This document shows positions 3,908 to 56,216 of a stretch of DNA of 64,000 nt, piece by piece. The position numbers and the translations under genes are program-made. How positions within the stretch are numbered: the first letter of the stretch is position 1; each line of letters opens with the position of its first letter. The notes beneath the pieces are model-generated. The model did not search any database, had not been told where the DNA came from, and saw nothing but the letters and a program-made list of their open reading frames with translations. The stretch covers positions 2,170,001 through 2,234,000 of the forward strand of contig NC_007948.1 in assembly GCF_000013865.1 (NCBI RefSeq), in the 5' to 3' direction. Source of the DNA: Polaromonas sp. JS666 (lineage in GTDB: Bacteria > Pseudomonadota > Gammaproteobacteria > Burkholderiales > Burkholderiaceae_C).

Positions 3908-3922
3908 ACTGAACCGTATTGC
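3908..3922 (-). repeat. 15-bp inverted repeat flanking the IS630 region, right arm
   Basis: ACTGAACCGTATTGC, exact reverse complement of 2666-2680. It begins right after the TA duplication of the IS630 copy, so it belongs to the target rather than to the element. Confidence 0.6.
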
Positions 3923-6721: not shown

Positions 6722-6848
6722 CTCAAAATTATGGTGCCGGCCTTGAGGCCCCCACAGGTTCGGAGCGGCTTTTTCGCCGTATTTGGGTAGAGGTGCCGCG
6801 GCGGCCCGTCAGGGCTATTTTTCAAGTCAATTTGAGGGAGTTCCTGCC

Positions 6849-7517
6849 ATGCGACTTGTCCAGAATTCACTGCATCATGAAGTTGCCGATACTTTGCGCG
6901 AGCAGATTTTCTCGGGCCAGTTGATGCCGGGCACGTTTCTCGATGAGGTCGCGCTGTGCGAGAGCCTGAAGATTTCCCGCACGCCGCTGCGCGAAGCGCT
7001 CAAGGTCTTGACGGCGGAGGGCTTGCTACGCCATGAGCCCAGAAGGGGCTGCTTCGTCAACGAAGTGACCGAGCAGGATCTGGACGACATTTTCCCGGTG
7101 ATTGCGCTGCTGGAAGGCCGCTGCGCCTACGAGGCGGCGCGCAATGCTACCGATGCGGACCTGGCGGAACTGACGACCCTGCACGCGCGCTTGAGCAGCC
7201 ATGCCAAGGCGGGCCGCATCAACGACTACTACGCCACCAATTACGCCATTCATGAAGCGATTATTTTGCTGGCCAACAACCGCTGGCTGGCGCAGGCGAT
7301 TGCCGACCTGCGCAAGATACTGAAGCTGGCGCGCCTGCAGCAGTTGCGCGCGCCGGGCCGCCTGACCCAAAGCCTGTCGGAACACATGACGGTGTTTGCG
7401 GCCCTGAAAAGCCGCGACAGCGAAGGGGCGGAGGCCGCCATGCGCACCCACCTGACGCGCCAGCGTGAAGCGCTGCGCGGCCTGGCTGCCAACCAGCGTT
7501 CGAGGTTGGCATCATGA
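6849..7517 (+). CDS. matR: GntR-family (FCD) regulator of the malonate operon
   Basis: A 222-residue regulator with an N-terminal winged helix-turn-helix (LREQIFSGQLMPGTFLDEVA, then SRTPLREALKVLTAEGLL, about residues 10-65) and an all-helical FCD ligand-binding domain (about 80-210) that in this family binds carboxylic acids, often with a metal. Start ATG 6849 follows a GAGGGA Shine-Dalgarno. Its TGA overlaps the ATG of the malonyl-CoA decarboxylase gene (ATGA), so the regulator is the first gene of the operon, as MatR is in rhizobial mat loci. The malonate or malonyl-CoA effector is inferred from the neighbours. Confidence 0.85.
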   Translation: MRLVQNSLHHEVADTLREQIFSGQLMPGTFLDEVALCESLKISRTPLREALKVLTAEGLLRHEPRRGCFVNEVTEQDLDDIFPVIALLEGRCAYEAARNATDADLAELTTLHARLSSHAKAGRINDYYATNYAIHEAIILLANNRWLAQAIADLRKILKLARLQQLRAPGRLTQSLSEHMTVFAALKSRDSEGAEAAMRTHLTRQREALRGLAANQRSRLAS

Positions 7518-9091: not shown

Positions 9092-9182
9092 ATGTGTACT
9101 TAACATCGATTCCGCACGTCGATTCAGCACATCGATTCCGTATTTTCAGATTCAACAACGTTCAACAACGACAGGAGACAAA
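9092..9182 (+). repeat. Short direct repeats in the matA-Bug gap
   Basis: The 91-bp gap contains ACATCGATTCCG twice (plus a variant GTCGATTCAG between them) and a tandem TTCAACAACG pair just before the Shine-Dalgarno ACAGGAG of the next gene. Probably slippage products; no function is evident. Confidence 0.5.
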
Positions 9183-10178
9183 ATGACATTCAGCCTTGGA
9201 AAGGGTTCGCGGCGCGACGTGCTGCGCGCCACCGCCGCCAGTGTTGCCTTATTTGCCATCAACAGCCATGCCCAGTCGGGCTGGCCCACCAAGCCGGTAA
9301 CGGTGGTGGTGCCTTTTCCCGCCGGTGGTGGAACCGATGCATTTGCCCGGCCGCTCTCGGGGCAGTTTGCCAAGCTGACAGGCAAACAGCTGATCGTTGA
9401 CAACCGCGGTGGCGCCGGTGGCACGCTGGGTGCCAGCATTGCGGCGAAGGCCGCGCCTGATGGTTACACCCTGTTCATGGGCGCCGTCCATCACACCATT
9501 GCGCCTTCCATGTACCCGAAGCTGGACTACGACCTTGAGAAGGATTTTGTGCCGCTGGCCCTGATGGCCAATGTGCCGCAGGTGGTGGTGATCAATCCGA
9601 AGCGGGCGGAAACGCAGAACATCAAGGCGTTCATAGAGTACGCACGCAAGAACCCCGGCAAGCTCAACTACGGCTCTGCCGGCGCGGGCACCTCGCATCA
9701 CCTGGCCGGCGAGTTGTTCAAGCAGCAGACCAAGACTTTCATCACGCACATTCCTTACCGTGGTGCAGGCCCGGCCCTGCAAGACCTGATCTCCGGCAAT
9801 GTGGACGTGATGTTTGACGGCCTGGGTTCCTCTGCAGCCCACATCAAGGGAGGCCGCATCAAGGCGTTGATGGTCTCTGGCAGCAAGCGCAACCCGGCCT
9901 TTCCGGATGTGCCCAGCGCCGCCGAGGTCGGCCTGCCGGATTACACCGTGACCACCTGGTACGGTCTGTGGGCGCCGAAAGGCACGCCCGCCGATATTCA
10001 GGCGCGCATCGTTGAAGAATTGCGCAAGGCCGCAGCCAGCGACGAACTCAAGGCCATCTGGGCCAGCAATGGTGCGGAGTTCGGCAACCTGACACCGCAG
10101 CAGTTCGGTGCTTTTGTTCATGCGGAAATCCAGCGCTGGGCGGCCGTGGTCAAGACATCGGGCGCCAAGCTCGAATAG
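9183..10178 (+). CDS. Bug/TctC-family periplasmic solute-binding protein (malonate operon)
   Basis: A 331-residue periplasmic binding protein of the tripartite tricarboxylate transporter type. The N-terminus has a twin-arginine-like start (SRRDVLRA) and a cleavable signal ending near SHAQS. Family hallmarks follow: WPTKPVTVVVPFPAGGGTD, NRGGAGGTLGA, the PYRGAGPALQDLI loop and GLWAPKGTP. No TctA/TctB membrane genes are nearby, as is usual for the many orphan Bug genes of Burkholderiales. Lying between malonyl-CoA decarboxylase and synthetase, it probably binds malonate or a related dicarboxylate; this is context-based. Confidence 0.9.
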   Translation: MTFSLGKGSRRDVLRATAASVALFAINSHAQSGWPTKPVTVVVPFPAGGGTDAFARPLSGQFAKLTGKQLIVDNRGGAGGTLGASIAAKAAPDGYTLFMGAVHHTIAPSMYPKLDYDLEKDFVPLALMANVPQVVVINPKRAETQNIKAFIEYARKNPGKLNYGSAGAGTSHHLAGELFKQQTKTFITHIPYRGAGPALQDLISGNVDVMFDGLGSSAAHIKGGRIKALMVSGSKRNPAFPDVPSAAEVGLPDYTVTTWYGLWAPKGTPADIQARIVEELRKAAASDELKAIWASNGAEFGNLTPQQFGAFVHAEIQRWAAVVKTSGAKLE

Positions 10179-10260
10179 ATATGGCCCCCACGCTTTTCAC
10201 TTCGTGTAATGCGCTGCCCCCCGAGGGGGCTAATTTTCCTAGGGGCTGCCCGTCGGAAAA
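10179..10260. repeat. GGCCCCCACG...CCGAGGGGGC intergenic repeat, copy 1
   Basis: TGGCCCCCACG, CACTTCGTGTAATGC, CCCCCCGAGGGGGC and CTAATTTTCCTAGGGG follow in order. The same ordered blocks recur almost unchanged at 58155-58248. CCCCCGAGGGGG and TTTTCC...GGAAAA form hairpins. Confidence 0.8.
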
Positions 10261-10287
10261 TTGCATACTTCCCACACTTTTCATACG

Positions 10288-11157
10288 ATGAGCGGCGCCA
10301 TTTTGCTGGAAAGGCTGGGCCCGGTTGCGACAGTAACCCTGTCGCACCCTGGCAAGCTCAATGCCATGTCGCGAGCGATGTGGCGTGAGTTGCGGACTGC
10401 GTTCGAGCAGCTCCAGTGCGGTGGCGACGTGACCTGCGTGCTGGTACGCGGCGACCGTGCGCCCGCCAGCGCAGAGGGTGTCGGCCACTTTTGCGCCGGG
10501 GGCGATATCTCCGAATATGCTGATTTCCGCTTCGACGAAGCCAGCTTGCGCAACTTCCATGAAAACGAGGTCTGGGGCGGCCTGCAGGCGATGCTTGACT
10601 GCGACATTCCCATCGTTGCCCAGATCGAGGGCAACTGCATGGGGGCCGGCATGGAGATCGCCAGTTGCTGCGACATCCGCATTGCCAGCGAGACGGCCCG
10701 TTTTGGTGCGCCAATTGCCAAACTGGGCTTTCCCATGGCCCCGCGCGAGGCGGCGTTGGTGATGCGCGCTGCCGGCGAGCTGACGGCACGTGAAATGCTG
10801 CTGTCGGCAGCGGTGCTGGACGCGGCTGAGATGAAGCAGCGCGGTTTTCTCAGCCAGGTCGTGCCGGCGGGTGAGGTCGCCCATGCGGCGCTGGCGTATG
10901 CGGGCCGCATCAGCCAGCTGGCTCCTCAGGCGGCGCGTCTGAACAAGCAGACTTTCAGGGCGTTGACTCCCAGCCTCGCTGCGCAACCCATTGCAGAATT
11001 AATAGCGGGCGCCTATGACTACGCGAACGCAGCCGAACACCGCGAGGGCGTGATGGCCTTTGTTGAAAAACGCCAGCCCCGTTTTTGTCAGCCCCGTTTA
11101 ATGGCTGCACTTTCCGAATTCCCAACCTTCGACAGCCCGATCCATGAAAAACCATAA
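10288..11157 (+). CDS. Enoyl-CoA hydratase/isomerase family protein
   Basis: A 289-residue crotonase-fold protein. The oxyanion-hole segments are HPGKLNAMS (about 18-26) and VGHFCAGGDISEYADF (about 69-84). The second active-site region is QIEGNCMGAGMEIASCCDIRIAS (about 112-135). Start ATG 10288 gives the standard N-terminus; an upstream in-frame TTG lies in the repeat before it. The 3' end overlaps matB by 14 bp, so the two are translationally coupled. The activity could be hydration, isomerisation or acyl-CoA decarboxylation; its place in a malonate operon suggests handling of malonyl-CoA or a substituted malonyl-CoA, which is not proven. Confidence 0.85.
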   Translation: MSGAILLERLGPVATVTLSHPGKLNAMSRAMWRELRTAFEQLQCGGDVTCVLVRGDRAPASAEGVGHFCAGGDISEYADFRFDEASLRNFHENEVWGGLQAMLDCDIPIVAQIEGNCMGAGMEIASCCDIRIASETARFGAPIAKLGFPMAPREAALVMRAAGELTAREMLLSAAVLDAAEMKQRGFLSQVVPAGEVAHAALAYAGRISQLAPQAARLNKQTFRALTPSLAAQPIAELIAGAYDYANAAEHREGVMAFVEKRQPRFCQPRLMAALSEFPTFDSPIHEKP

Positions 11158-12664
11158 CCTGTTTGCGGCACTGCGTGCCGCCTTTCCTGCCTCGCTGGAT
11201 GACGTCGCCGTTGAAACCGACCATGGCCTGTTCTATACATGGCGCGACCTCGACCGCGCCACGGCCATGGTGGCCAATCTTCTGCAGTCGCTGGGCCTGC
11301 CCGAGGGCTCGCGCGTGGCGGTCCAGGTTGAAAAATCGGTCGAAGCGCTGGTGCTGTACCTGGCGACCTTGCGCGCGGGCTATGTGTTTTTGCCGCTGAA
11401 CACCGCCTACCAGAGCGCCGAAATTGAATACTTCATCGGCAATGCAGAGCCGGCTGTGGTGGTGTGCAGCAGCAAGAATTTTGGCTGGGTCAGCAAGATC
11501 GCCTTCAAGGCGGGCACGCAGAATGTCTTCACACTGGACGACGACCGCACGGGCTCCCTGCTGGAGCGTGCAGCGCACTGCAGCGACCGGCATGACATCG
11601 CCATAAAAAAGCCGGACGACCTGGCCGCCATTCTCTACACCAGCGGCACCACCGGCCGTAGCAAGGGCGCCATGCTGTCGCATGGCAACATGCTCAGCAA
11701 TGCGCTGGTCCTGAAGGACTACTGGGGCTGGAAGAAGGGCGATGTGCTGATCCATGCCTTGCCCATTTTTCACGTGCATGGCCTCTTTGTCGCCATCCAC
11801 GGCGCGCTGGTCAACGGCAGCAAGATGATCTGGCTGTCGAAGTTCGACCCGAAGCTGGTCGTGAAAAAGCTGCCCGAGGCCACGGTGTTCATGGGCGTGC
11901 CCACGCTCTATGTGCGCTTGCTCGCCGAGCCCGGGCTGGACCGCGAGGCCTGCCGCAACATGCGCCTCTTCGTTGCGGGCTCGGCGCCGCTGCTCATTGA
12001 AACCTTCAACGCGTGGCAGCAGCGCACCGGGCATACCATTCTCGAGCGCTACGGCATGTCTGAGACGGCCATGCTGACTTCCAACCCCTACGAGGGCGGC
12101 GAGCGGCGAGGCGGCACCGTGGGGCTGGCGCTGCCGGGTGTGAGCCTGCGGGTGCAGGGCGACGATGGCAAGCCACTGCCCGTGGGGGAAATCGGTGACA
12201 TCCAGGTCAAGGGGCCGAATGTCTTTCAGGGCTACTGGCGCATGCCCGAGAAAACGAAGGAAGAGTTCACGCCCGACGGTTACTTCAAGACCGGTGATGT
12301 GGGCAAGATTGACGAGCGCGGCTACATCACCATCGTCGGGCGCAGCAAGGACCTGATCATCAGCGGTGGCTACAACGTCTATCCGGCCGAGATTGAAGGC
12401 TATATCAACGACATGCCGGGTGTGGCCGAAAGCGCGCTGGTCGGTGTGCCGCATCCCGACTTCGGGGAGGTCGGCATCGCCATCGTCGTGCCCAAGCCTG
12501 GTGCCTCGCTGGACGCCGGCGAGATCATTGCCGGGCTGAAGTCGCGGCTGGCCAATTTCAAGATTCCAAAACGCTGTTTCATTGCCAGTGAACTGCCCCG
12601 CAACACCATGGGAAAAGTCCAGAAAAACGTCTTGCGCGACCAGCAAAAAGGCCTGTTTGCCTGA
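11144..12664 (+). CDS. matB: Malonyl-CoA synthetase
   Basis: An adenylate-forming ligase that makes malonyl-CoA from malonate, ATP and CoA. It has 506 residues. The ATP loop YTSGTTGRSKGAMLSH lies at about 164-179. Other blocks are LPIFHVHGLF, the substrate-pocket region MGVPTLYVRLL, GSAPLL, ERYGMSETAM, and the C-terminal hinge and catalytic lysine regions YFKTGDVGKIDERGY and PRNTMGKVQKN. These blocks and the ALVLYLATLRAGYVFLPLNT stretch follow characterised MatB proteins closely. It closes the malonate operon. Confidence 0.95.
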   Translation: MKNHNLFAALRAAFPASLDDVAVETDHGLFYTWRDLDRATAMVANLLQSLGLPEGSRVAVQVEKSVEALVLYLATLRAGYVFLPLNTAYQSAEIEYFIGNAEPAVVVCSSKNFGWVSKIAFKAGTQNVFTLDDDRTGSLLERAAHCSDRHDIAIKKPDDLAAILYTSGTTGRSKGAMLSHGNMLSNALVLKDYWGWKKGDVLIHALPIFHVHGLFVAIHGALVNGSKMIWLSKFDPKLVVKKLPEATVFMGVPTLYVRLLAEPGLDREACRNMRLFVAGSAPLLIETFNAWQQRTGHTILERYGMSETAMLTSNPYEGGERRGGTVGLALPGVSLRVQGDDGKPLPVGEIGDIQVKGPNVFQGYWRMPEKTKEEFTPDGYFKTGDVGKIDERGYITIVGRSKDLIISGGYNVYPAEIEGYINDMPGVAESALVGVPHPDFGEVGIAIVVPKPGASLDAGEIIAGLKSRLANFKIPKRCFIASELPRNTMGKVQKNVLRDQQKGLFA

Positions 12665-41885: not shown

Positions 41886-42938
41886 TCAGGCCTTGGTGGC
41901 CTTGGTGTGCTTTTCAATGAGGCTGCGTGCCGTGTCCAGCAGTTTCTTGCCGTCAAAGCCTTTCTTGTTCATGTCTTCCACCCACTCGACTTCCACCGCA
42001 CGCGACTTGCGGCGGAATTCCTGCGCCTCGGCCGCACTCACAGTGTAGATGGTGTTGCCGCGGTCGCTGGCGCTCTTGCGGCCGGCAGCGTCGTTGCCCT
42101 GCTGCACCTTGCCGAGCCAGGCCGAGGTGGCCATGCCCGAATTGTTGTCGATGACTTTCTTGAGGTCGGGCGGCAGTGAGTTGTACTTGGCCTTGTTCAT
42201 CGCCATCACAAACGTCAGGGTGTACAGGGCACCACCGGCCGGGTCAAATTCCGCATGGAATTTGGTGAGCTCATGGACCTTGACCGAAGGCACCACTTCC
42301 CAGGGAATCACGCAGCCTTCGATGGTGCCTTTGCTCAGCCCGTCCGGAATTTGCGGCAAAGGCATGCCGACGGGGATGGCGCCCAGCACGCCCATCAATT
42401 TGGTGACCTGGCGGGTCGGTGCGCGCAGTTTGAGGCCGCGCATGTCATTGATGGACTTGACCGGCTTGTTGACGGTATGAATCACGCCGGGGCCGTGCAC
42501 ATGAAGCGCGAGGACCTGGGTGTCCTTGAACTCGTCAACGGCCACGGTCTGCACATATTCCCAGTAGGCTTTGGATGTGGCCTCGGCGTTGCTCATCATG
42601 AAAGGCAGGTCGAAGACATCGACGCGCGGGAAGCGGCCGGCGGTATTGCCGGGCAGGGTCCACACCACGTCAACCACGCCGTCCTTGACCTGGTCATAGA
42701 GCTGCACCGGCGTGCCGCCGAGTTGCATGGCGGGGTAGGCTTCAAACTTGATGCGCCCACCGGACTCTTTCTCGACTTTTTCCATCCAGGGCTTGTGCAT
42801 GGACTGCCAGACGTTGGACTGCGGGGACATGAAGGTATGGAATTTGAGGGTGACGACCTGCTGGGCCAGGCCGCTCAGGGCAGGTGCGCCCAGGGCCACG
42901 GCGGCACCGGATTTCAAAAGGGTGCGGCGTTGAATCAT
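41886..42938 (-). CDS. dctP: TRAP transporter substrate-binding protein
   Basis: A 350-residue periplasmic receptor of a sodium- or proton-driven TRAP system. The signal region MIQRRTLLKSGAAVALGAPA has a twin-arginine-like RR motif. The mature part starts VTLKFHTFMSPQSNVW. The ligand-binding landmarks are RIKFEAYPAMQLGG, GVVDVVWTLPGNTAGRFPRV and GLKLRAPTRQVTKLMGVLGA, whose Arg would contact a carboxylate. Start ATG 42938 has GGAGA. It is the last gene of the dctQ-dctM-dctP unit. An organic acid ligand, possibly aromatic, is inferred. Confidence 0.93.
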   Translation of the reverse strand: MIQRRTLLKSGAAVALGAPALSGLAQQVVTLKFHTFMSPQSNVWQSMHKPWMEKVEKESGGRIKFEAYPAMQLGGTPVQLYDQVKDGVVDVVWTLPGNTAGRFPRVDVFDLPFMMSNAEATSKAYWEYVQTVAVDEFKDTQVLALHVHGPGVIHTVNKPVKSINDMRGLKLRAPTRQVTKLMGVLGAIPVGMPLPQIPDGLSKGTIEGCVIPWEVVPSVKVHELTKFHAEFDPAGGALYTLTFVMAMNKAKYNSLPPDLKKVIDNNSGMATSAWLGKVQQGNDAAGRKSASDRGNTIYTVSAAEAQEFRRKSRAVEVEWVEDMNKKGFDGKKLLDTARSLIEKHTKATKA

Positions 42939-43019
42939 GATGAAGTCTCCTTGTATCGGGATAGTTATTGAAATTAACGGTAAAAGCGGCCGGTGGTTTT
43001 CAGGACTTACCCGCGGATT

Positions 43020-44339
43020 TCACTTGATAAAGCCCACCAGCCACAGCGGAATGATGGGGAAGAACAGGAACAGCATGGTGCGCAGCACGTCGCTGAACAG
43101 GAAAGGCATCACCCCCCGGTAGGTTTCGCTCATGGGCACATTTTTGGCCAGGCCATTGACGATGTAGACATTCAGCCCGACGGGCGGTGCAATCAGGCCG
43201 AACCCCACGGTCATCAGCACCATGATGCCAAACCAGATGGCTACTAAATCTTTTGCCATGCCAAAGTCGAGCGCCATGACCATGGGGAAAAAGATGGGAA
43301 TGGTCAAGAGCAGCATGGAGAGCTCGTCCATGACGGCGCCGAGCAACACATAGAAAAGCAGGATCGCGACCACCACCACCAGCGGCGAGAGTCCCCAGCC
43401 GCCGACCAGCGCGGCCAACTGGTTGGGAACCTGCGTGAGCGCCAGCGCCGAGTTCATCAGGTCGGCGCCGATGAAAATCAGGAAAATCATGGCGGCACTT
43501 ACCGCCGTGCCGTAAAAGCATTCCTTGAATTTGTCCAGGGTCATCTCGCCCTTGAGCAGGGCGGTCAGAAACGTCGAAGCCGCCCCCACGGCAGCACCTT
43601 CGGTAGGGGTGAAAAACCCGCCGTAGATGCCACCAAAGACCAGCAGAAAAATCACGACAATGGGGGTCACGCCGATCAGGGAGTGCATCGTCACGCCCTG
43701 ACGGTCTGCCTGAACCTCAGGTGCGTGGCCTGGCACAACGCGCACATAAATCGCCACTGCGATCATGTAGCCGCACATGGCAATAATGCCGGGAATTACC
43801 GCAGCAGCGAACAGCTTGCTGATGTTCTGCTCGGTAAGAATCGCGTAGATCACCAGCACGATGGAAGGTGGCAACTGGATGCCCAGCGTGCCGCCTGCAG
43901 CCAGCGTTCCGGTGGCCAGCCGGCCCGAATAGCCGTGGCGCTGCATTTCAGGCAAGGCAACCCCGGTGATGGTGGCCGCGGTCGCCACCGAGGAACCGCT
44001 GATTGCGCCGAACGCTGCGCAGGCCAGCAGGGAGGCCATGGCCAGCCCGCCCTTGAAGCGCCCCATGACACCTGCGGCAAATTCAAACAGCGACTTGCTG
44101 ATACCGCCCTTGGTGGCAAAGTGCCCCATCAGGATGAACAGCGGAATCACCGAGAGGTCGTAGCCGGCAAAGCGTGCAAAAGCCTGGGTGTTCAGGAAAC
44201 TTGCAAAAGGCGCCCAACCCGTTTGCGTGACATAGCCGATGGCACCCGCCCCGAACATGCTGACAGCGATGGGCACGCGCACGGCCATCAGGGCCAGCAT
44301 GCTGCCAAAGATCAGCAGCGTCAAACTCAGTGAACTCAT
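43020..44339 (-). CDS. dctM: TRAP transporter large permease
   Basis: A 439-residue inner-membrane protein with about 12 helices that forms the TRAP channel. Visible family segments are VSMFGAGAIGYVTQTGW, VIPLFILMGHFATKGGIS, GAISGSSVATAATITGVALPEM, and GTLGIQLPPSIVLVIYAI. The second half repeats the fold with VFGGIYGGFFTPTEGAAVGA and MDELSMLLLTIPIFFP. ATG 44339 overlaps the dctQ stop (ATGA), and the longer upstream frame lies inside dctQ. Confidence 0.94.
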   Translation of the reverse strand: MSSLSLTLLIFGSMLALMAVRVPIAVSMFGAGAIGYVTQTGWAPFASFLNTQAFARFAGYDLSVIPLFILMGHFATKGGISKSLFEFAAGVMGRFKGGLAMASLLACAAFGAISGSSVATAATITGVALPEMQRHGYSGRLATGTLAAGGTLGIQLPPSIVLVIYAILTEQNISKLFAAAVIPGIIAMCGYMIAVAIYVRVVPGHAPEVQADRQGVTMHSLIGVTPIVVIFLLVFGGIYGGFFTPTEGAAVGAASTFLTALLKGEMTLDKFKECFYGTAVSAAMIFLIFIGADLMNSALALTQVPNQLAALVGGWGLSPLVVVVAILLFYVLLGAVMDELSMLLLTIPIFFPMVMALDFGMAKDLVAIWFGIMVLMTVGFGLIAPPVGLNVYIVNGLAKNVPMSETYRGVMPFLFSDVLRTMLFLFFPIIPLWLVGFIK

Positions 44340-44824
44340 ATCGTGGTCTCTCCAGCTTCTTCGGAGCCAAAACCAAACAGTGTCTGGCGCAGGGCAATCA
44401 GCCCTGTCAGGATAAAAGGCGGCACCATCATGGCGTAGACGATCCACTCGGGAAACCCCATGATCTGGGTTTCGGAATGCGCCGAATAGACATTGAGCCC
44501 GCCCAGCGTGGTGCGCCAGGCCAGCAGGCTAAAAATCAGCGCCAGCAGCAGGGTGCCGAAGCGGTCTAGTTTGTCGTTGACGGCGTCGCTCATCTTCGAC
44601 GTGAAAAAATCAACAATGATGTTTCCGCGGCGCAGTTGGCACAGCGGCATGAAGAGCGCAATAGCCGCGCCAGCGGCGACACCTGTCAACTCGAATGCTC
44701 CGACGATGGAGTCGCCGGTGGTGTTGCGGCCTATCAGGCTGGCGCAGGTCATCAGGGTGATGCCGGTCAACAGCACGCCCGCGATGATGGCGCACAGTTT
44801 TGCGAGGTTTTCAAGAATCTTCAA
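44336..44824 (-). CDS. dctQ: TRAP transporter small permease
   Basis: A 162-residue membrane subunit with four predicted helices (about 7-30, 43-62, 87-107 and 127-148). The family motif RRGNIIVDFFTSKMS lies after helix 2. The start is TTG 44824: GGAG lies seven bases upstream and no ATG precedes the first helix. It is the first gene of the TRAP operon, 253 bp downstream of the gentisate operon end on the same strand, so the two may be separately transcribed. Confidence 0.92.
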   Translation of the reverse strand: MKILENLAKLCAIIAGVLLTGITLMTCASLIGRNTTGDSIVGAFELTGVAAGAAIALFMPLCQLRRGNIIVDFFTSKMSDAVNDKLDRFGTLLLALIFSLLAWRTTLGGLNVYSAHSETQIMGFPEWIVYAMMVPPFILTGLIALRQTLFGFGSEEAGETTI

Positions 44825-44920
44825 ACTTGTCTCCAGCCGGTGGATTCATGGGTTGAACAGAGGCGTTGCAAAGGCGTTGAGGTGAAGGTCGCAGCCCCCG
44901 GTGCCTTGCATTTGGCGGAT

Positions 44921-44955
44921 TATGAAGAAACCCGCCGCGGCGGGGCAGGCGGGTT
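44921..44955 (-). terminator. Possible terminator after the gentisate operon
   Basis: AACCCGCC pairs with GGCGGGTT; on the minus strand the hairpin is followed by TTCTTC. It lies between the fumarylpyruvate hydrolase stop and dctQ. The T-run is imperfect. Confidence 0.5.
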
Positions 44956-45077
44956 ACCCCGAGCGGGCCGGGTATTTGCGCGATGATCGAAGCGGCTGCG
45001 CGTATACCGCACAAACTGCCCGCGAACGCCGCCCTGCACAACGCAGGTGCAAGGCGCTTGCCCGCAGGCAGTCGGGC

Positions 45078-45773
45078 TTACGCGACCTTGACGGTCAGCG
45101 TACCCAGGCCGGCCACGCCGCCGACCATGGTGTCGCCAGACACCACCGCCGCCACACCCTCGGGGGTGCCGGTGTAAATCAGGTCGCCGGGCTGCAGTTC
45201 CCAGGCCACGGACAGGTGTTCTATGGTTTCGGCAATGTTCCAGATCAGCTTGGAGACATTGCTGCGCTGGCGGTCTTTTCCGCCGACCTGCAGGTAGATC
45301 TCGGCGTTGCTCACATCGCCGGCCTGGGCGACGGGCGTGATGGGGCCGATGGGCGCGGAGTGGTCATAGGCCTTGCCGATGCACCAGGGACGGCCCTGTT
45401 TTTTCATCTCGCCTTGCAAGTCGCGGCGTGTCATGTCCAGGCCCACAGCGTAGCCGTAGATGTGCTTGTGGGCATCGGCGGCCTTGATGTTTTTGCCGCC
45501 CGTGCCAATCGCCGCGACCAGCTCGATTTCATGATGCAGGTTGTTGGTGAGACTCGGGTAGGGAATGGTGCCCGTGCTACCGGCGTCAATCACCACGAGG
45601 GCGTCTGCCGGTTTCAGGAAGAAGAAGGGTGGTTCGCGGCCAGTGAAGCCCATCTCCTTGGCATGCTCTTCGTAGTTGCGGCCCACGCAGTAAATGCGGT
45701 GGACGGGAAAGCGTTCTTTGACTCCCACAACGGGTACGGAAACCGTGGCGGGCGGGGTAAATACAAAACTCAT
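45078..45773 (-). CDS. nagK: Fumarylacetoacetate hydrolase family protein, probable fumarylpyruvate hydrolase
   Basis: A 231-residue metal-dependent hydrolase. The FAH fold is shown by IYCVGRNYEEHAKEMG, FFFLKPADALV, the metal-binding HHEIELVAAIG and the C-terminal GDLIYTGTPEGVAAV. Its ATG overlaps the stop of gentisate 1,2-dioxygenase, which makes fumarylpyruvate (to fumarate plus pyruvate) the likely substrate after isomerisation. Hydrolysis of maleylpyruvate directly, to maleate plus pyruvate, is the alternative. The Shine-Dalgarno is AGGAAAGG. Confidence 0.9.
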   Translation of the reverse strand: MSFVFTPPATVSVPVVGVKERFPVHRIYCVGRNYEEHAKEMGFTGREPPFFFLKPADALVVIDAGSTGTIPYPSLTNNLHHEIELVAAIGTGGKNIKAADAHKHIYGYAVGLDMTRRDLQGEMKKQGRPWCIGKAYDHSAPIGPITPVAQAGDVSNAEIYLQVGGKDRQRSNVSKLIWNIAETIEHLSVAWELQPGDLIYTGTPEGVAAVVSGDTMVGGVAGLGTLTVKVA

Positions 45774-46864
45774 GACAACCTTTCCTCTTTGTGTATGCCC
45801 AAGGCCTGATGCACCGGGCGGTCTGAAAAACTGAACAGCACACAACCTTGCTGCGAGTGCAGTTGGGCAGTGTGCCACGACGGAATCACAAAATGGTCGC
45901 GCGGGCCAAAGTCGAATGTCCAGGATTGGCCATTGCGCTCGATGGTGACGCTGCCGTGGCCTTCCACCACGCTGAATACGGCCCCATCGGTCTGGCGCCA
46001 GGGCTTGCCTTCAAAGCCCGCCGGCAGGCGCTGCATGAAGGTGGCCATGGTCGGCATGGGCGAGCCGCCCGTGGCCGGATTGACATAGCGCAGCTTGGTG
46101 CCGTCCCAGGCATCGATCTCGGCATGGGCTTCCAGCTGGTGCAGGGCCTCGCGTGTGCGCTCATAGGGGTAGCTGAAGATCGGAGAGGTCTGGCCAAAGG
46201 GCGCGTCGTAGCGCACCGGCAGCATGTTGGCGCCGTAGCGCTGGTAGCTGATGCCTTCAGCCTTGGTCACGGCTTGCTGTTTGGCGCTGCCGTTTTCCGC
46301 AAAGCCGGCGTCAAAGAAGCGCAGCATGGGGATGTCCAGGCCATCCAGCCAGACCACGGGTGCATCCGATTCCACATGGCCGGGGTGGCCATGGTCGTGC
46401 CATGTCCAGCTCGGGGTGATGATGAAATCGCCTGGCTTCATCTGTGTGCGCTCGCCGTCTACCGCGGTGTAGGCGCCCTGGCCTTCGACGACAAAGCGCA
46501 GTGCGCTTTGCGTGTGCCGGTGGCTGGGCGCGACTTCGCCCGGCATGATGACCTGCAGGCCGGCATAAAGCGACTGGGTCACGCAAGACTGCCCGCGCAG
46601 GCCGGGGTTTTCCAGGATCAGCACCCGGCGCACCGCCTCTTCGGCGGTGATAAGCTGGCCCGCCTGCATCAGGAACGGGTGTACCTCGGCGTATTTCCAG
46701 AGCGCGGGCTGGCATGGCGTCGTGGGGGACGGTGGCACCAGCGCGTGCAGCACCTCCCACAGCGGCGTCATGCTGTGGGACGAGATGGCGTCATAGAAGG
46801 CCTTGCGCGCCGCGTTGTCGGCGCGGGCCGGCTGGCCTGGTTTGGGGGGAGGTGTCATGTCCAT
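45770..46864 (-). CDS. nagI: Gentisate 1,2-dioxygenase
   Basis: Opens the ring of gentisate with O2 to give maleylpyruvate. It has 364 residues and two cupin domains. The iron-binding first cupin shows PGEVAPSHRHTQSALRFVVEG (about 110-130) and SWTWHDHGHPG. The second cupin includes the C-terminal IPSWHTAQLHSQQGCVLFSFSD. PFLMQAGQLI and LYAGLQVIMPGEV are also family blocks. Start ATG 46864 (MDMT) is taken; ATG 46858 is possible. It is coupled to the hydrolase downstream. Confidence 0.95.
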   Translation of the reverse strand: MDMTPPPKPGQPARADNAARKAFYDAISSHSMTPLWEVLHALVPPSPTTPCQPALWKYAEVHPFLMQAGQLITAEEAVRRVLILENPGLRGQSCVTQSLYAGLQVIMPGEVAPSHRHTQSALRFVVEGQGAYTAVDGERTQMKPGDFIITPSWTWHDHGHPGHVESDAPVVWLDGLDIPMLRFFDAGFAENGSAKQQAVTKAEGISYQRYGANMLPVRYDAPFGQTSPIFSYPYERTREALHQLEAHAEIDAWDGTKLRYVNPATGGSPMPTMATFMQRLPAGFEGKPWRQTDGAVFSVVEGHGSVTIERNGQSWTFDFGPRDHFVIPSWHTAQLHSQQGCVLFSFSDRPVHQALGIHKEERLS

Positions 46865-48534: not shown

Positions 48535-48870
48535 GAGAGCTACACGCAGTGAGCGAACGTGGGGGCTCTCCAACCCAGCAGGGGCCGCGGAACCGGCTTT
48601 GCCGGGCCGCAGGCGCAGCGGCCCCCTCGGGGGGCAGAGAGCTACACGCAGTGAGCGAACGTGGGGACTCTCCACCCCAGCAGGGGCCGCGGGACTGGCT
48701 TTGCCAGACCGCAGGCGCAGCGGCCCCCTCGGGGGGCAGAGAGCTACACGCAGTGAGCGAACGTGGGGGCTCTCCAACCCAGCAGGGGCCGCGGAACCGG
48801 CTTTGCCGGGCCGCAGGCGCAGCGGCCCCCTCGGGGGGCAGAGAGCTACACGCAGTGAGCGAACGTGGGG
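48535..48870 (-). repeat. 102-bp tandem repeat, three full copies plus a partial
   Basis: GAGAGCTACACGCAGTGAGC starts at 48535, 48637, 48739 and 48841, an exact 102-bp period. Copies 1 and 3 are near-identical and copy 2 differs at several sites (an A-B-A order). Since 102 is divisible by three, open frames run through it on both strands; these are not genes. Each unit contains a GGGGCCGC...GCGGCCCC arm pair and the CCCCCTCGGGGGG core of the dispersed repeat family. It separates the Bug gene from the FAD oxidoreductase gene in one operon. Confidence 0.92.
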
Positions 48871-48877
48871 GCCTCAT

Positions 48878-51246: not shown

Positions 51247-51693
51247 ATGGCAAAAAGCTTTGATTTCAGCGACGCCCCGGGGCACCTCATTCGCCGGGCA
51301 CAACAACTTGCAGTGGCGATCTTCATGGAGGAGACGGCGGGTTTTGACGCGACGCCGGTGCAGTTTGCCATCCTGAACGCGCTGATGGATGACCCTGGCG
51401 AAGATCAGATCACGCTGTCAGGGCGGGTGGCGTTCGACCCGGCCACTTTTGGCTCGGTGATCGGGCGGCTTGAAGCCAAAGGCTGGGTCAAGCGCGAGGC
51501 GGATCCGGGCGACAGGCGCCGCAAACTGCTGTGGATCACGCCCGAAGGGGAGAAGGTTGCGCTGCAGATGAAACGCGCGGTGAACCGGGCCCAGCAGCGC
51601 ATTGTGGGCCCACTGGATCCTGACGAGCGGGCACAACTGGGCGCGCTGCTCGGCAAGATGATCGCCGGGCACGAAAAAGCTGCCAGGCAATGA
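51247..51693 (+). CDS. MarR-family transcriptional regulator of the gentisate operon
   Basis: A 148-residue winged-helix dimer. The DNA-binding part includes QFAILNALMDDPGEDQITLS, the recognition helix FDPATFGSVIGRLEAKGWV and the wing DPGDRRRKLLWITPEG. Divergent from the hydroxybenzoate hydroxylase and separated from it by a perfect inverted repeat, it most likely represses the catabolic operon until 3-hydroxybenzoate or gentisate binds. MarR-type regulators of gentisate clusters are known in related bacteria. Confidence 0.9.
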   Translation: MAKSFDFSDAPGHLIRRAQQLAVAIFMEETAGFDATPVQFAILNALMDDPGEDQITLSGRVAFDPATFGSVIGRLEAKGWVKREADPGDRRRKLLWITPEGEKVALQMKRAVNRAQQRIVGPLDPDERAQLGALLGKMIAGHEKAARQ

Positions 51694-51788: not shown

Positions 51789-52091
51789 TCAGGCCGATTT
51801 GGCCAGCAGGTCGAAATGCTCCACGGTGGGCGGGCCGGCAAAAAACGGCCCGACAATGGCACGCCAGTCGGCAAAGGCCGGGGACTGGCGGAAGTCGACG
51901 GTGTGATTTTCCAGCGTCTCCCAGAAGATTTGGAGGATGTAGCGCTCTGGGCTCTCAATGCCTTTGTTGACTTTGAAACCCTGAAAACCTTTGGCGTTCT
52001 GGATGACGGTGGTCAGGCCGCGCTGGATGGCTTCGTCAAAAGCGGCTTGCTGGCCGGGATGGATACGGATGTCGGCGAGTTCGAGAATCAT
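51789..52091 (-). CDS. ABM-domain (antibiotic biosynthesis monooxygenase-like) protein
   Basis: A 100-residue ferredoxin-like alpha/beta barrel half, normally a dimer, spanning the whole chain (MILELADIRIHPGQQAAFDEA; FKVNKGIESPERYILQIFWE; HTVDFRQSPAFADWR). Relatives act as cofactor-free quinol monooxygenases or as small structural binding proteins. It is the last gene of the four-gene Rieske operon, 28 bp after the ferredoxin, with AGGA upstream. A role in oxidising a hydroquinone product or in protecting the cell from quinones is possible but not shown. Confidence 0.85.
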   Translation of the reverse strand: MILELADIRIHPGQQAAFDEAIQRGLTTVIQNAKGFQGFKVNKGIESPERYILQIFWETLENHTVDFRQSPAFADWRAIVGPFFAGPPTVEHFDLLAKSA

Positions 52092-52119
52092 GAAAAGTCC
52101 TGTTTTTGTGGCACTTGAA

Positions 52120-52443
52120 TTAATACTGGGTGATCGGTAACTCTACCGTCAAACCGTTGAGCGCGTCGGTGAGTTTGATCTGGCAGCTCAGGCGGCTGTT
52201 GGGCCGGCTGGGTGTGGCGGTAAAAGCCAGCATGGCCAGTTCTTCGTCATCGGGTGGTGGCAACCGGGTGGCAAAGGGCTCGTGCACGTGGACATGGCAG
52301 GTAGCGCAGGTCATCAGCCCGCCACAGTCGGCGGCAATTCCCTCGATACCCGCGGCCAGGGCGGCCTGCATCAGGCTCTTGCCCGTTTGGGCTGTAGCCC
52401 CTGTCAGTTGTCCGTCGGAAGCTATGAAGTTAATGGTAATCAT
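52120..52443 (-). CDS. [2Fe-2S] ferredoxin, adrenodoxin type
   Basis: A 107-residue electron carrier. The cluster ligands are C40, C46, C49 (ADCGGLMTCATCH) and C87 (RLSCQIKL), in the C-x5-C-x2-C spacing of adrenodoxin/putidaredoxin proteins. The end VELPITQY is typical. It starts 19 bp after the GS-like gene and most probably supplies electrons to the Rieske oxygenase two genes upstream. No ferredoxin reductase gene lies in the window, so that component must come from elsewhere. Confidence 0.94.
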   Translation of the reverse strand: MITINFIASDGQLTGATAQTGKSLMQAALAAGIEGIAADCGGLMTCATCHVHVHEPFATRLPPPDDEELAMLAFTATPSRPNSRLSCQIKLTDALNGLTVELPITQY

Positions 52444-52462
52444 GAAGTGTTGAAGAAGGCGT

Positions 52463-53950
52463 TCAAATCCGGCTGAAATATTCACGGCGCTGCCAGTCGT
52501 CCTTGTCTTCAGCTTGCGCATAGCGGTCCAGCTCGGACCGCTTGACGCGCACGAGGTAGTCGACAAAGGCGCTGCCAAAGGCCTTGACCAGAATCGGGTC
52601 CGTTTGCAGGGCCTCCAGCGCTTCGCCCAGGCTGGTGGGCAGCAGGGTGCCGCTAGCCCCATAGGGTGCATCGGTGGCGGGCGGCGCCTTCAGCCGGCGC
52701 GTGATGCCGTCGAGCCCGGCATGAATCTGCGAGGCCAGGTACAGGTAGGGGTTGGCGGCGGGCTCGCCGATGCGGTTTTCAATGCGCGTGGCGCCGTCAC
52801 CGCACTGGCCCACCACACGCAGCATGGCGCCGCGGTTGTCGCGGCCCCAGAGCACAGCCTGCGGCGCCAGCGCATTCGGGCGGTAGCGGCCAAAGCCGTT
52901 GATGGTGGGCGTGCAGAACACGGCCATGCCACGCGCATGCGCCAGCAGGCCGGCCAGGTAGTGCTCGCCCGTCTCCGACAGCGTGTGCCGGGCATCGGCT
53001 GCCGTGCTGCCCGGGGCCGGCGCTTCGCGCTGAAACACATTGCGGCCGGTTTCACTGTCGACCAGCGACTGGTGCAGGTGCCAGCCGCTGGACATGATGT
53101 TGGCAAACGGCGGGCGGCACATGAAGCTGGCGTGGTAGCCCGCCCGGCGCAGCGCCTGCTTGACCGCATTGCGAAACAGCACCATGTTGTCGGCAGCTGT
53201 CAGCGCGTCGGTGGCTTCGAACACTGCTTCCACCTGGCTGGGGCCCAACTCGATCTCGAGCGACAGCAAGGGCAGGCCCAGCGCCTGCGCCGTGTGCTGC
53301 ACGATGCGCAAGGGCTCTTCGGCCAGGTCGTACCAGCCCTCGGTCAGCATGTTGTAGCCCGGGTGAACCAGGCTGACCTGCGGCGGCAAACCGGGCCAGC
53401 CGGCCTGGTTGGGGTCCAGCTGGTCCCGGGTGCCTTCCTCGGTGATCTTGTAAATGTGGAATTCGACTTCGAGCCCGCACTTCATGCCGTAGCCGGCCCG
53501 CGCCAGGCCGGCGAGCGCCTGCTGCAGCACGCGGCGCGTGTCCAGCTCCACCGGCTGGCCGTTTTGAAACCAGAGCTGGCCCTGAACCCAGCCGGTGGCG
53601 GGCGTCCAGGGCAGTTGCCGAAAGCTTGACGGGTCGGCCAGCAGCAGCAGGTTGCTGGCGAACTCGAAGCCCGGCAACCCGGCGGGGCCGCCACGCTCGA
53701 ATACTTTGAATGCCGTGCTGCGGTCCGAGGTGTCCTTGAGGACCAGGGTGCTGACCAGGCCCACGCCTTCCTGCATGGCCTTTGCGGCGGCGCCGGCCAC
53801 CAGGGTTTTACCGCGTGTGACACCGTGCAGGTCGCACCACGCAAAACGCACCAGCTCCAGGTCGCTGGCAGTGATCAGCCCGGAGGTGTGTTCCAGCGCT
53901 TGCTGGCGTGCGGCATCGCGGATTCCGCAGAGCTGCGCGAAGGTGGGCAC
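52463..53950 (-). CDS. Glutamine synthetase-like ligase (gamma-glutamylation type)
   Basis: A 495-residue ATP-dependent ligase of the GS fold, expected to join glutamate to an amine. The N-terminal beta-grasp contains LVRFAWCDLHGVTRGKTL. The catalytic domain has CGLEVEFHIY, LSLEIELGPSQVEAVF, SGWHLHQSL, NGFGRYRPNALAP, WGRDNRGAMLRV and ENRIGEPAANPYLYLASQ, so the metal and ATP sites look intact. GTG 53950 is chosen; the longer frame is only palindromic repeat DNA. The gene lies between a Rieske oxygenase and a ferredoxin. In aniline degradation a GS-like protein (TdnQ/AtdA1) makes gamma-glutamylanilide before dioxygenation, and PuuA/IpuC act on aliphatic amines. Here an aromatic amine is a reasonable guess; true glutamine synthesis is unlikely from the context. 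Confidence 0.85.
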   Translation of the reverse strand: MPTFAQLCGIRDAARQQALEHTSGLITASDLELVRFAWCDLHGVTRGKTLVAGAAAKAMQEGVGLVSTLVLKDTSDRSTAFKVFERGGPAGLPGFEFASNLLLLADPSSFRQLPWTPATGWVQGQLWFQNGQPVELDTRRVLQQALAGLARAGYGMKCGLEVEFHIYKITEEGTRDQLDPNQAGWPGLPPQVSLVHPGYNMLTEGWYDLAEEPLRIVQHTAQALGLPLLSLEIELGPSQVEAVFEATDALTAADNMVLFRNAVKQALRRAGYHASFMCRPPFANIMSSGWHLHQSLVDSETGRNVFQREAPAPGSTAADARHTLSETGEHYLAGLLAHARGMAVFCTPTINGFGRYRPNALAPQAVLWGRDNRGAMLRVVGQCGDGATRIENRIGEPAANPYLYLASQIHAGLDGITRRLKAPPATDAPYGASGTLLPTSLGEALEALQTDPILVKAFGSAFVDYLVRVKRSELDRYAQAEDKDDWQRREYFSRI

Positions 53951-54046
53951 GGCCCTCACCCCAGCCTGCTCCCAGAGGGAGAGGGAATGAAAGCAGGAAT
54001 CTTGGCTCCCTCTCCCTCTGGGAGAGGGTTGGGGTGAGGGCTGCCC
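53951..54046. repeat. Long palindromic repeat at the Rieske-GS junction
   Basis: CCCTCACCCCAGCC...GAGGGAGAGGGA and TCCCTCTCCCTCTGGGAG...GGGGTGAGGG form imperfect inverted arms of over 30 bp around a central AATGAAAGCAGGAATCTTGG. It is the common bacterial repeat built on CTCTCCCTCTGGGAGAGGG. It runs into the 3' end of the Rieske gene and abuts the GS-like start codon. Confidence 0.88.
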
Positions 54047-55410
54047 GTCCAAGGCGCACCGTCACGCTTGGTCCGCACCTGCTCGCGCCACCAGTCGGGC
54101 CACGCACCGGCTGGTGCAATGCCGTCCACCGTGTCCGGCCCGGTCATGGCTGCGGCCTGTGCTGCGTCGGCGATACCCGGCGCAACACCGCCGGCCTGCA
54201 CCGTGGCGATGGCCTTGATCAGCACCCGCCGGTTGACCATGATGACCTTGTCGGTGGTGCCCAGGTGCTCGCGCGTGCGGTCGGCAATCGGGCCCATGCT
54301 TTCCACGGCCCACTGGTCATGCACGTTGATATCGTCCTCGCCCATGCCCAGATAGGTCTGGCTCAACTGTTCCTCGGCATCAAAGCCCCACCGGTTATGG
54401 CTGCCGGCCTTGGGGATGTAGTCGGGTAGCGAGATGAACTGCTGGCGCTGCGCGCGCATGCTCTCCTTGTCCAGCGGCCCGGCAAAGCTGGTGAAGAAGG
54501 AATACCAGTAGGTATGCGTGTCGTCCACGGGCAGGTGCATCTGCGTGATCGTCATGGTTTCCGACAGCGGAATCACAAAGGTGGCCGGGAAGATGGCCTG
54601 GGTCACGCGCACATGGGTCAGCTTGTCGGTCATGGGCCGCAACGCGGTGAGCTGCATGCCCCACGGTCTGGTTTCAAAGCTGATGTCGGGCTGCGCAAAT
54701 TCGCGCATGATGCGCGTCATCGGCCATTGCTCGCCATCCATGGCGCCGGCGCTCGCACTGCGGAACTGTTTGCCCGCTGCGTTCTGGCCGATCTCGTCCA
54801 GCGGCTCGTCCTGCAGAAAACGGTGCAGGAAGGAGGGATGCGCCGGGTCAATGCCTACTTCAAAGGCCTGCAGCCAGTTGGCGTTCCACAGGCCCTTGAA
54901 GGCAAAGCTGTGGGTGGCCGGTGCGGCAAAGCAGTCAAACGCCGGGAAGGGCGGGGGTGTGCTGCCCTCGTCACCCAGCCAGGCAAACAGCACGCCGCTT
55001 TTTTCGATCACCGGGTAGCTGCGCTGTCTGATGCGTTCGCACAGCTTGCTGCCCGTGGGCTCGGCCGGCGTCTCCAGGCAGCGGCCATCAGCTGCAAACT
55101 TCCAGCCGTGAAACGGGCAGCGCAGGCCACCACCCTGTTCAAGGCTCTCGCGCCGGCCAAATGACAGGTCGGCCCCGCGGTGCGGACAGTCGCGGTCCAG
55201 CAGGCCCCAGGTGTTGCTGGCGTCACTGAACAGCACCAGGTCCTGGCCCAGCACGCGCACCGCCTTGACCGGGCGCTTGTCCATGCGCGGGTCCTGGCTG
55301 GGGTTGAATTCGTCGACCAGCGCCACCGGTTGCCAATACTGGCGCATCAGCTGCCCGCAGGGAGTGCCCGGGCCGATCCGGGTGATCAGTTCGTTTTGTT
55401 CTGCATTCAT
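53956..55410 (-). CDS. Rieske aromatic oxygenase, large subunit, with repeat-derived C-terminus
   Basis: A 484-residue ring-hydroxylating or O-demethylating oxygenase of the single-subunit-type (phthalate/phenoxybenzoate dioxygenase-like) group. The start is MNAEQNELITRIGPGTPCGQ and the family tag MRQYWQPVAL follows. The Rieske cluster is bound by C75-P-H77 and C98-P-F-H101. The mononuclear iron site is IDPAHPSFLHRF (D188, H191, H196). The last 30 or so residues (from about 453, GSPHPNPLPEGEG...) are translated from a palindromic repeat and are not part of the fold. There is no small subunit. ATG 55410 has AGGACATCC upstream. It heads a four-gene operon under a divergent GntR; the substrate is unknown. 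Confidence 0.9.
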   Translation of the reverse strand: MNAEQNELITRIGPGTPCGQLMRQYWQPVALVDEFNPSQDPRMDKRPVKAVRVLGQDLVLFSDASNTWGLLDRDCPHRGADLSFGRRESLEQGGGLRCPFHGWKFAADGRCLETPAEPTGSKLCERIRQRSYPVIEKSGVLFAWLGDEGSTPPPFPAFDCFAAPATHSFAFKGLWNANWLQAFEVGIDPAHPSFLHRFLQDEPLDEIGQNAAGKQFRSASAGAMDGEQWPMTRIMREFAQPDISFETRPWGMQLTALRPMTDKLTHVRVTQAIFPATFVIPLSETMTITQMHLPVDDTHTYWYSFFTSFAGPLDKESMRAQRQQFISLPDYIPKAGSHNRWGFDAEEQLSQTYLGMGEDDINVHDQWAVESMGPIADRTREHLGTTDKVIMVNRRVLIKAIATVQAGGVAPGIADAAQAAAMTGPDTVDGIAPAGAWPDWWREQVRTKRDGAPWTGSPHPNPLPEGEGAKIPAFIPSPSGSRLG

Positions 55411-55454
55411 GGATGTCCTGCGGGATGGGGGTGATCAGGTGGGGGGTGTGAAAA

Positions 55455-55464
55455 CGGTATACCG
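55455..55464. promoter_or_regulatory. CGGTATACCG palindrome, probable GntR operator
   Basis: A 10-bp perfect palindrome centred on GTATAC in the 83-bp divergent gap; a further GTGTAC lies at 55478. FCD-type GntR proteins often bind sites with a GTATAC core. Confidence 0.55.
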
Positions 55465-55493
55465 AAATTTGAATTCAGTGTACAGTCATCATC

Positions 55494-56216
55494 ATGAGCT
55501 TGCAAGAAACGGTTTTGATGCAGTTACGGGACCTGATCCTGCGCGGGGAATTCGCGCCCGGCCAGCGTCTGGCCGAGCAGCAACTGGCTGAGCGCCTGGG
55601 TGCCTCACGCACGCCGGTGCGGGCCGCGCTGGTCACGCTGGAGCAGGAAGGGCTGGTGGAGGCCAACGACACGGGCAAATACCTGGTGCGCCAGTTCACA
55701 CCGCGCGAAGTGGCCGATGCGATTGCCGTGCGCGGCCATCTTGAAGGCATGGCCGCGCGCCTGGTGGCTGAGCATGGGGTTTCTCGCCAGCTGCAGCTCG
55801 ACCTGCAGTCCTGCCTCGACGAAGGCGACCGCGCGCTGGCGCCCAATCCGCTGGCTTATGAAAACTACGCGGCCTATGCCGTCATGAACGACCGCTTCCA
55901 TGCGCTGATCCTGGAGGCCAGCGGCAACCGCGCCCTGCAGCGTGCCATCGAACTCAATGACAAGCTGCCTTTTGCTTCAGCGTCGGCCATGCTGCCGATG
56001 CAATCCACATTGGAGCAGGACCGCGACTGGATGCATTACGCGCACCGCCAGCACCATATGCTGTTTGCCGCCCTCAAGGCCGGCGAAGGCGCGCGTGCCC
56101 AGGCCCTGGCCGTGGAGCATACGGAAGTGGCCCAGATGAACATGCGCATGGCGCTGGAGCGGCGGGCCGAAACCGAACACCTGATGCCGGGCCTGCGTCT
56201 GGTGGTGGGGCGGTAA
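55494..56216 (+). CDS. GntR-family (FCD) regulator of the Rieske/GS operon
   Basis: A 240-residue regulator. The winged helix-turn-helix covers about residues 5-68 (LRDLILRGEFAPGQRLAEQQ, RLGASRTPVRAALVTLEQEG) and the helical FCD domain about 78-215, with His residues (HLEG, FHALILEASGN, HHMLFAAL) placed to bind a metal and carboxylate ligand. It is divergent from the Rieske oxygenase, so it probably represses that operon until a substrate or intermediate binds. Confidence 0.9.
   Translation: MSLQETVLMQLRDLILRGEFAPGQRLAEQQLAERLGASRTPVRAALVTLEQEGLVEANDTGKYLVRQFTPREVADAIAVRGHLEGMAARLVAEHGVSRQLQLDLQSCLDEGDRALAPNPLAYENYAAYAVMNDRFHALILEASGNRALQRAIELNDKLPFASASAMLPMQSTLEQDRDWMHYAHRQHHMLFAALKAGEGARAQALAVEHTEVAQMNMRMALERRAETEHLMPGLRLVVGR

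Follow-up and report, generated by a model that had tools for sequence, protein, structure and literature searches.

The stretch of DNA analysed here, hereafter the window, comprises 64,000 nucleotides of Polaromonas sp. JS666 (C1:2170001-2234000 in a 5.9 Mb genome of three contigs, C1-C3). On its minus strand lies a run of four genes encoding a Rieske oxygenase alpha subunit, a glutamine synthetase (GS)-like ligase, a [2Fe-2S] ferredoxin and an ABM-domain protein, next to a divergent gene for an FCD-type GntR protein (Table 1). The position, strand and open frame of all of these genes were confirmed from the list of open reading frames (ORFs), domain search and the sequence. The intergenic spacing is 5 nt (Rieske-ligase), 19 nt (ligase-ferredoxin) and 28 nt (ferredoxin-ABM), and coordinates, domains and gaps agree with an earlier note on this DNA, which had described a one-strand run with 5-28 bp spacing and a divergent FCD-GntR gene. 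If the upstream of two possible GTG codons is the start of the ligase, the 5-nt gap becomes a 4-nt GTGA overlap. Also as described there, no beta (small) subunit, amidotransferase or ferredoxin reductase is found among the ORFs of the run, and no diol-cleavage gene was found within it. The FCD-GntR protein is likely the regulator of the operon, and the ABM protein, which scores only 22 bits with the HmuQ model (cut-off 130), may be an accessory component. The scanned region as a whole shows no enrichment of terminator-like sites (6 versus a shuffle mean of 7.9), so the call of an intrinsic terminator downstream of the ABM gene rests on the place and stem of the hairpin.

Table 1. Features of the operon and its surroundings in the window
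Feature	Position	Strand	Details
FCD-type GntR regulator	55494-56216	+	PF00392 and PF07729; divergent to the operon
Rieske oxygenase alpha subunit, SadA-like	55410-53956	-	PF00355, PF19301 (LigXa_C)
Palindromic repeat, Rieske/GS junction	53952-54041	.	about 90 bp; 35-nt arms
GS-like arylamine gamma-glutamyl ligase, SadB-like (putative)	GTG 53959 or GTG 53950 to 52463	-	PF00120, 238 bits
[2Fe-2S] ferredoxin, adrenodoxin/ISC-like	52443-52120	-	CX5CX2C motif; PF00111; TIGR02007 42.7 bits, under cut-off
ABM-domain protein, putative accessory	52091-51789	-	PF03992
Intrinsic terminator-like hairpin 3' of ABM	51770-51743	-	11-pair stem with 6 GC pairs, T-rich tail
MarR gene, convergent to the operon	51247-51693	+	between the operon and the gentisate genes
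Tandem repeat	48535-48872		102-bp unit, 3.3 copies
FAA hydrolase and TRAP solute-binding genes	41886-45878	-	counterparts of genes linked to the operon in relatives

The adjacency of genes for a Rieske alpha subunit, a GS-like ligase and a ferredoxin is the gene content of the sad operon of Hydrogenophaga intermedia PBC. According to the passages of PMC5632844 on that operon, it comprises sadA (4-aminobenzenesulfonate 3,4-dioxygenase), sadB (glutamine synthetase) and a ferredoxin gene, named sadC in a figure legend; it is called fairly conserved across all Hydrogenophaga genomes reported at that time, and its original substrate is suggested to be a natural, structurally similar compound, which those passages leave unnamed. 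Consistent with this, we found a Rieske orthologue, 67-74% identical, in 46 of the 60 genomes (35 of the 38 of good quality) of the genus around genome G114, and it is present as a single copy in 45 of these 46; one genome also has a copy of a sister type. We take this genus to be Hydrogenophaga, because the G114 locus is 89-90% identical to loci L051 (titled Burkholderiales) and L049 (titled Hydrogenophaga). Proteins named as from H. taeniospiralis, H. crassostreae and H. pseudoflava also belong to the Rieske group of the window. In the 2012 work of Gan, sadB was reportedly essential in E. coli, sadD was the ferredoxin gene, and the reductase gene sadC was located elsewhere. In this genome, too, the candidate ferredoxin reductase genes lie outside the run, on C2 (beside a paralogue of the operon) and on C3 (44% identical to the C2 candidate). 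Together, these data make it very probable that the operon in the window is of the sadABD type. The earlier note had proposed a candidate new pathway; this plausible call is corrected to a known system, since the Rieske/GS-like/ferredoxin combination is that of the Hydrogenophaga sad operon (described in parts of PMC5632844), whose run likewise shows no amidotransferase or reductase match in the Hydrogenophaga loci fetched, and this system occurs widely outside the sulfanilate degraders that it was described from. No report of the Polaromonas copy was found in the literature searched, most subscription journals being outside that search.

To assess conservation, one-genome-per-species contigs were scanned with the Rieske protein, which gave at least 593 pattern matches and at least 591 confirmed relatives. 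The best 80 of these confirmed relatives formed the conservation set; being picked by Rieske similarity, the 80 loci show the linkage of partner genes, not the frequency of the operon. A ligase homologue lies directly downstream of the Rieske gene on the same strand in all 80 loci, and the adjacency of the two genes is therefore not due to chance. The ferredoxin gene comes next in 57 of the 71 loci with room for it, while an ABM gene is present in 22 of 69 and a GntR homologue divergent from the Rieske gene in 35 of 76. A MarR match was found in 17 of the 61 loci with more than 6 kb of downstream sequence. The refuting condition of the earlier note, that no relative keeps the four genes together, thus did not come true: the Rieske-ligase pair is conserved throughout, although the fourth gene (ABM) is retained in only a minority of the loci. 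None of three amidotransferase queries matched any of the 80 loci; two reductase queries matched one locus (L074), and a Dca-type reductase query matched another (L019). In loci L022, L027, L028 and L029 of Caenimonas and Ramlibacter, the ABM gene follows the ligase gene without a ferredoxin match, so the ferredoxin may be replaceable. The distribution of the Rieske protein is patchy in Polaromonas itself (18 of 61 genomes including this one, E up to 1e-80), and in a sample of 150 genomes of the family, a Rieske match of at least 62% identity was found in 25, again including this genome.

A gene for gamma-glutamylamine cyclotransferase (GGACT), of two sequence types, is divergent from or adjoins the Rieske gene in 13 of the 80 loci (L035-L039, L041, L042, L045, L047, L063, L065, L066 and L069). 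Gene orders of six of these 13 loci showed MiaB beside GGACT in all six and, in five, Ffh at the opposite flank of the operon, the contig of the sixth ending earlier. In nine genomes of the 150-genome sample, one contig carries both GGACT and a strong Rieske match, about 21-38 kb apart as judged by eye; this genome is among the nine, with GGACT at about 18.35 kb of the window. GGACT was rejected as a pathway partner, as it looks like part of a core neighbourhood (MiaB, Ffh) and is far from the Rieske gene in the nine sampled genomes.

The best relative of the ligase among solved structures is 8wwu (343 bits), followed by a chain at 163 bits. Although its database title is only "Glutamine synthetase", we take 8wwu to be NpaA1, since the chain has 510 residues and three entries, which would correspond to the apo form and two complexes described in PMC11335346. 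In a 34-row ligase tree that included NpaA1, Dca-type ligases and, from E. coli, GlnA and PuuA (but no row for AtdA1 or TdnQ), the window ligase, NpaA1 and the Dca-type ligases fell into a 30-row clade apart from E. coli GlnA and PuuA with a support of 100/99, within which the window-type ligases formed a 16-row clade (support 100/100); the branches of PuuA and L003 are long, and their exact position is unsure. Thus, the ligase does not group with housekeeping GlnA, a grouping that the earlier note had named as refuting its reading, and the chemistry class proposed there, gamma-glutamylation-dependent oxidation of an aromatic amine, is probably right, given the 8wwu match and the arylamine-ligase clade. 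The window ligase shares 37.8% identity with NpaA1, 41.2% with the pLME1 ligase, 26.9% with GlnA and 21.1% with E. coli PuuA, and is 48.0% identical to its paralogue on C2 and 66.9% identical to the protein of Hydrogenophaga aromaticivorans. Four GS-family models of NCBIfam matched the ligase, none at its cut-off, and the scores for GlnA (195.9 of 429.15 bits) and type III GS (219 of 469.6 bits) are not those of a housekeeping GS. E. coli GlnA D51 and E328, which we take to be the catalytic Asp and the flap Glu, are K and L in the window ligase by our own matching of positions. The residues matching E232 and E234, described as amine-binding in the NpaA1 account of PMC11335346, are conserved.

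A further residue bears on the substrate. In NpaA1, F75 lies in loop 68-81 of the adjacent subunit and contributes to holding the aromatic ring, as described in the same account (PMC11335346). At this position, just before an invariant Asp, the sad-type ligases have Lys in 80 of 80 loci; the same was found for 120 of 120 listed homologues, which may overlap the 80 loci, and for nine of nine sister-clade ligases. Five aniline-type ligases have Phe (four) or Val (one). Six other ligases were divided between Lys (four) and Phe (two): those with Lys (L107, L108, L109 and Nitratireductor) all have a Rieske gene of the window kind nearby, and those with Phe (Streptomyces and Rhizobium) have no full-length match to a Rieske protein of this kind. 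Because Lys stands where aniline-type ligases have Phe or Val, the pocket lysine may meet an acid group on the substrate ring, suggesting an anionic substrate such as 4-aminobenzoate. On this alignment, the sad-type ligases would form a distinct subclass in which Lys takes the place of Phe75 in the hydrophobic ring-contact loop of NpaA1.

The Rieske protein retains C75, H77, C98 and H101, which we take to be the Rieske ligands, and D188, H191, H196 and D365, presumably the catalytic-iron set; each is conserved in 97% or more of 201 sequences of the window type and in 90% or more of 10 sequences of the sister type. Among solved structures, the closest chains are 7fhr, which bears the title putative phthalate 4,5-dioxygenase, and two others whose title is simply Rieske domain protein. 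In the Rieske tree, its lineage differs from that of the alpha subunits of three aniline-type systems, with a very long branch between them, and the pairing with an arylamine ligase therefore involves a different oxygenase.

The repeat at the Rieske/ligase junction has arms that are 91% complementary, and its 21-nt core matches the genome 80 times with up to two mismatches, versus 0 matches in a control; two of the 80 relatives carry the palindrome at the same junction. The last 20-30 or so residues of the Rieske protein are encoded by the inserted palindrome, giving a longer C-terminus, and an arm provides both the stop codon of the Rieske gene and a potential GTG start for the ligase. The insertion re-creates the GTGA stop/start overlap, and every gene of the operon is still open. 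In 70 of the 80 loci, the Rieske stop and a start codon in frame with the ligase overlap by 4 nt, and the genome-wide repeat sits exactly at a gene junction that is usually translationally coupled. A 529-aa ORF from TTG 54052 was rejected as the ligase, its extra N-terminus falling inside the repeat.

The same two genes are paired in a sister clade, which was found on C2 of this genome and on plasmids of Cupriavidus, Caballeronia, Paraburkholderia, Methylobacterium, N. resinovorum SA1 and others. The C2 sister operon (L115, C2:254000-273900; 1516-12320) again has the order Rieske/GS-like/ferredoxin, with a Rieske protein 59% and a ligase 50% identical to those of the window, and its neighbours include genes for a reductase, a Liv-type ABC transporter, a glutamine-amidotransferase-like protein and a divergent FCD-GntR-like protein. 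In sister cluster L119, the neighbours encode a nitroreductase (annotated in two pieces), the 4-hydroxylaminobenzoate lyase PnbB (PF16155, 201 bits), a PcaK-like aromatic-acid transporter and a PuuD-like hydrolase; the transporter and the hydrolase score under their NCBIfam cut-offs. Matches to all four of these genes were found in L156, and to all but PnbB in L118. These neighbours point to 4-nitrobenzoate or 4-aminobenzoate and to protocatechuate. In N. resinovorum SA1, a degrader of sulfanilate, the plasmid-borne sister pair lies near genes for maleylacetate reductase and folP. Furthermore, this genome encodes PcaHG (protocatechuate 3,4-dioxygenase), which scores over the NCBIfam cut-offs and lies far from the window operon; a search of the genome for LigA (PF07746) gave no match, but was uninformative, as control genomes gave none either.

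Based on these data, we propose that the operon probably serves the oxidative deamination of an acidic aromatic amine, as in the sad system. By analogy with its family, the GS-like ligase would first use ATP to join L-glutamate to the nitrogen of the arylamine, yielding a gamma-glutamyl arylamide. The alpha-only Rieske oxygenase, receiving electrons via the operon ferredoxin and a reductase encoded elsewhere, would then dioxygenate the nitrogen-bearing carbon and its neighbour, and the adduct would collapse to a vicinal diol, the nitrogen leaving with glutamate. 4-Aminobenzoate would in this way give protocatechuate, a substrate for PcaHG of this genome. The residue pattern of the ligase makes a 4-aminobenzoate-like anion the likely substrate, and the chance that it is 4-aminobenzoate itself appears to be about even. 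More tentatively, and at somewhat less than even odds, the operon may represent a widespread natural Burkholderiales route for 4-aminobenzoate or a closely similar anionic arylamine, with sulfanilate breakdown as a by-use and a ligase subclass that recognises the acid via the invariant lysine. With this lysine and the 4-nitrobenzoate-type setting of two sister clusters, the question of the natural substrate becomes a simple enzyme test.

Several points weigh against this proposal. The role assigned to the lysine comes from an alignment, and the identity with sad is drawn from genus-wide presence and gene content, not from the sequences of SadA, SadB and SadD of strain PBC. The run is without a ferredoxin reductase or diol-cleavage gene, and ABM, MarR and GntR genes are not general among the loci. 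Queries for PcaH, PcaG, PcaK and PnbB match no flank among the 80 window-type loci, and the link to protocatechuate thus comes only from the sister clade and the genome at large. Finally, the protocatechuate route does not explain the linkage of the operon to FAA-hydrolase and TRAP genes, which was seen in all 11 informative Hydrogenophaga-titled loci.

This linkage leads to an alternative that we consider unlikely, in which the same chemistry is followed by gentisate-like processing and the operon forms one functional unit with the FAA hydrolase and TRAP genes, for example for a meta-substituted amine such as 3-aminobenzoate; this comes close to the suggestion of the earlier note. Beyond MarR, the window carries a minus-strand gentisate operon for 3-hydroxybenzoate 6-monooxygenase (3HB6H; NF006021, over cut-off), TctC, a PF12831 FAD oxidoreductase, gentisate 1,2-dioxygenase (TIGR02272, over cut-off), an FAA hydrolase and TRAP proteins, of which DctQ and DctM were assigned via homology to the scanned relatives; the tandem repeat of Table 1 lies between the FAD oxidoreductase and TctC genes. 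Thus, 3HB6H and gentisate dioxygenase genes adjoin the sad-type operon here. Among 13 Hydrogenophaga-titled loci, 11 extend past the ligase. Each of these 11 has an FAA hydrolase gene (product 74-84% identical to that of the window) directly after the ferredoxin gene, followed by a DctP gene (75-78% identical) that adjoins it in 10 loci and lies about 4 kb away in L060; L048, L057 and L060 are among the relatives showing the linkage. This count makes gentisate-like processing slightly more probable, and our main reading slightly less so, than they would otherwise be. Of the 61 loci mentioned above, 32 have the FAA hydrolase and 30 DctP, whereas 3HB6H and gentisate dioxygenase were matched in 11 and 16, and neither was matched in the DNA examined of the 13 Hydrogenophaga-titled loci. 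The link to the sad-type operon is thus wider for the FAA hydrolase and TRAP genes than for the gentisate genes proper. In addition, the two operons of the window are separated by the hairpin resembling a terminator and by the convergent MarR gene, and the known route for 3-aminobenzoate uses 3-aminobenzoate 6-monooxygenase, the main text of PMC9584955 containing no "glutamine synthetase". Dioxygenation at the C-N position would moreover give a vicinal diol, not a para diol. The earlier suggestion that the operon feeds the adjacent gentisate genes is not supported, because the product expected by analogy with aniline dioxygenase would be such a vicinal diol; the downstream FAA-hydrolase and TRAP genes speak in part for some connection between the two operons.

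It is less probable still, and in our view rather improbable, that the ligase acts on a non-aromatic amine in the manner of PuuA or IpuC and the Rieske oxygenase dealkylates or hydroxylates the resulting amide. GS-like ligases for isopropylamine and putrescine are known, as noted in parts of PMC11335346, and neither ABM nor TRAP genes are specific to aromatic compounds; however, the ligase is 38-41% identical to three aniline-type ligases versus 21% to PuuA of E. coli, the closest Rieske chains of solved structure include one of the phthalate 4,5-dioxygenase type, and some sister clusters contain genes for aromatic-acid transport and of nitrobenzoate type. That the ligase is an ordinary glutamine synthetase placed in the operon by happenstance is very improbable: it has a full Gln-synt_C domain and such proteins bear the name "glutamine synthetase" in public sources, but it reaches no NCBIfam GS cut-off, falls into a separate clade and has lost D51 and E328 of GlnA, and another ligase of this genome, L004, is the one that groups with E. 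coli GlnA.

Our preferred reading, the sad-type deamination of an acidic arylamine, can be set against the known systems. LigXa and phthalate 4,5-dioxygenase-type Rieske oxygenases are not known to have a ligase partner and act directly on aromatic acids; the window protein resembles them in its PF19301 domain and its nearest solved chains. The aniline and 1-naphthylamine systems (AtdA, TdnQ/DcaQ and NpaA1-A5) share with the window operon the ligase family, the logic of gamma-glutamylation and the Rieske oxygenase that follows. They differ in consisting of a GS, an amidotransferase and Rieske alpha and beta subunits, with a reductase in three of four records, whereas the window run has neither a beta subunit nor an amidotransferase, and the latter is unmatched in all 80 loci. 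They also have their own Rieske alpha lineage, and F or V at the ring contact where the window type has K. The sister-clade clusters have the Rieske and GS-like pair and keep K75, but a ferredoxin-reductase match was found in 10 of 15, and some contain an amidotransferase, PnbB with a PcaK-like transporter, or a Liv-type ABC transporter. In Hydrogenophaga, which belongs to the same bacterial family, the sad operon likewise combines a Rieske alpha subunit, a GS-like ligase and a ferredoxin in one run, and the Hydrogenophaga loci fetched show no amidotransferase or reductase match in the run. Different from it, the window copy has an extra ABM gene and the junction palindrome, and its counterparts of the FAA-hydrolase and TRAP genes belong to the neighbouring operon and do not directly follow the ferredoxin gene.

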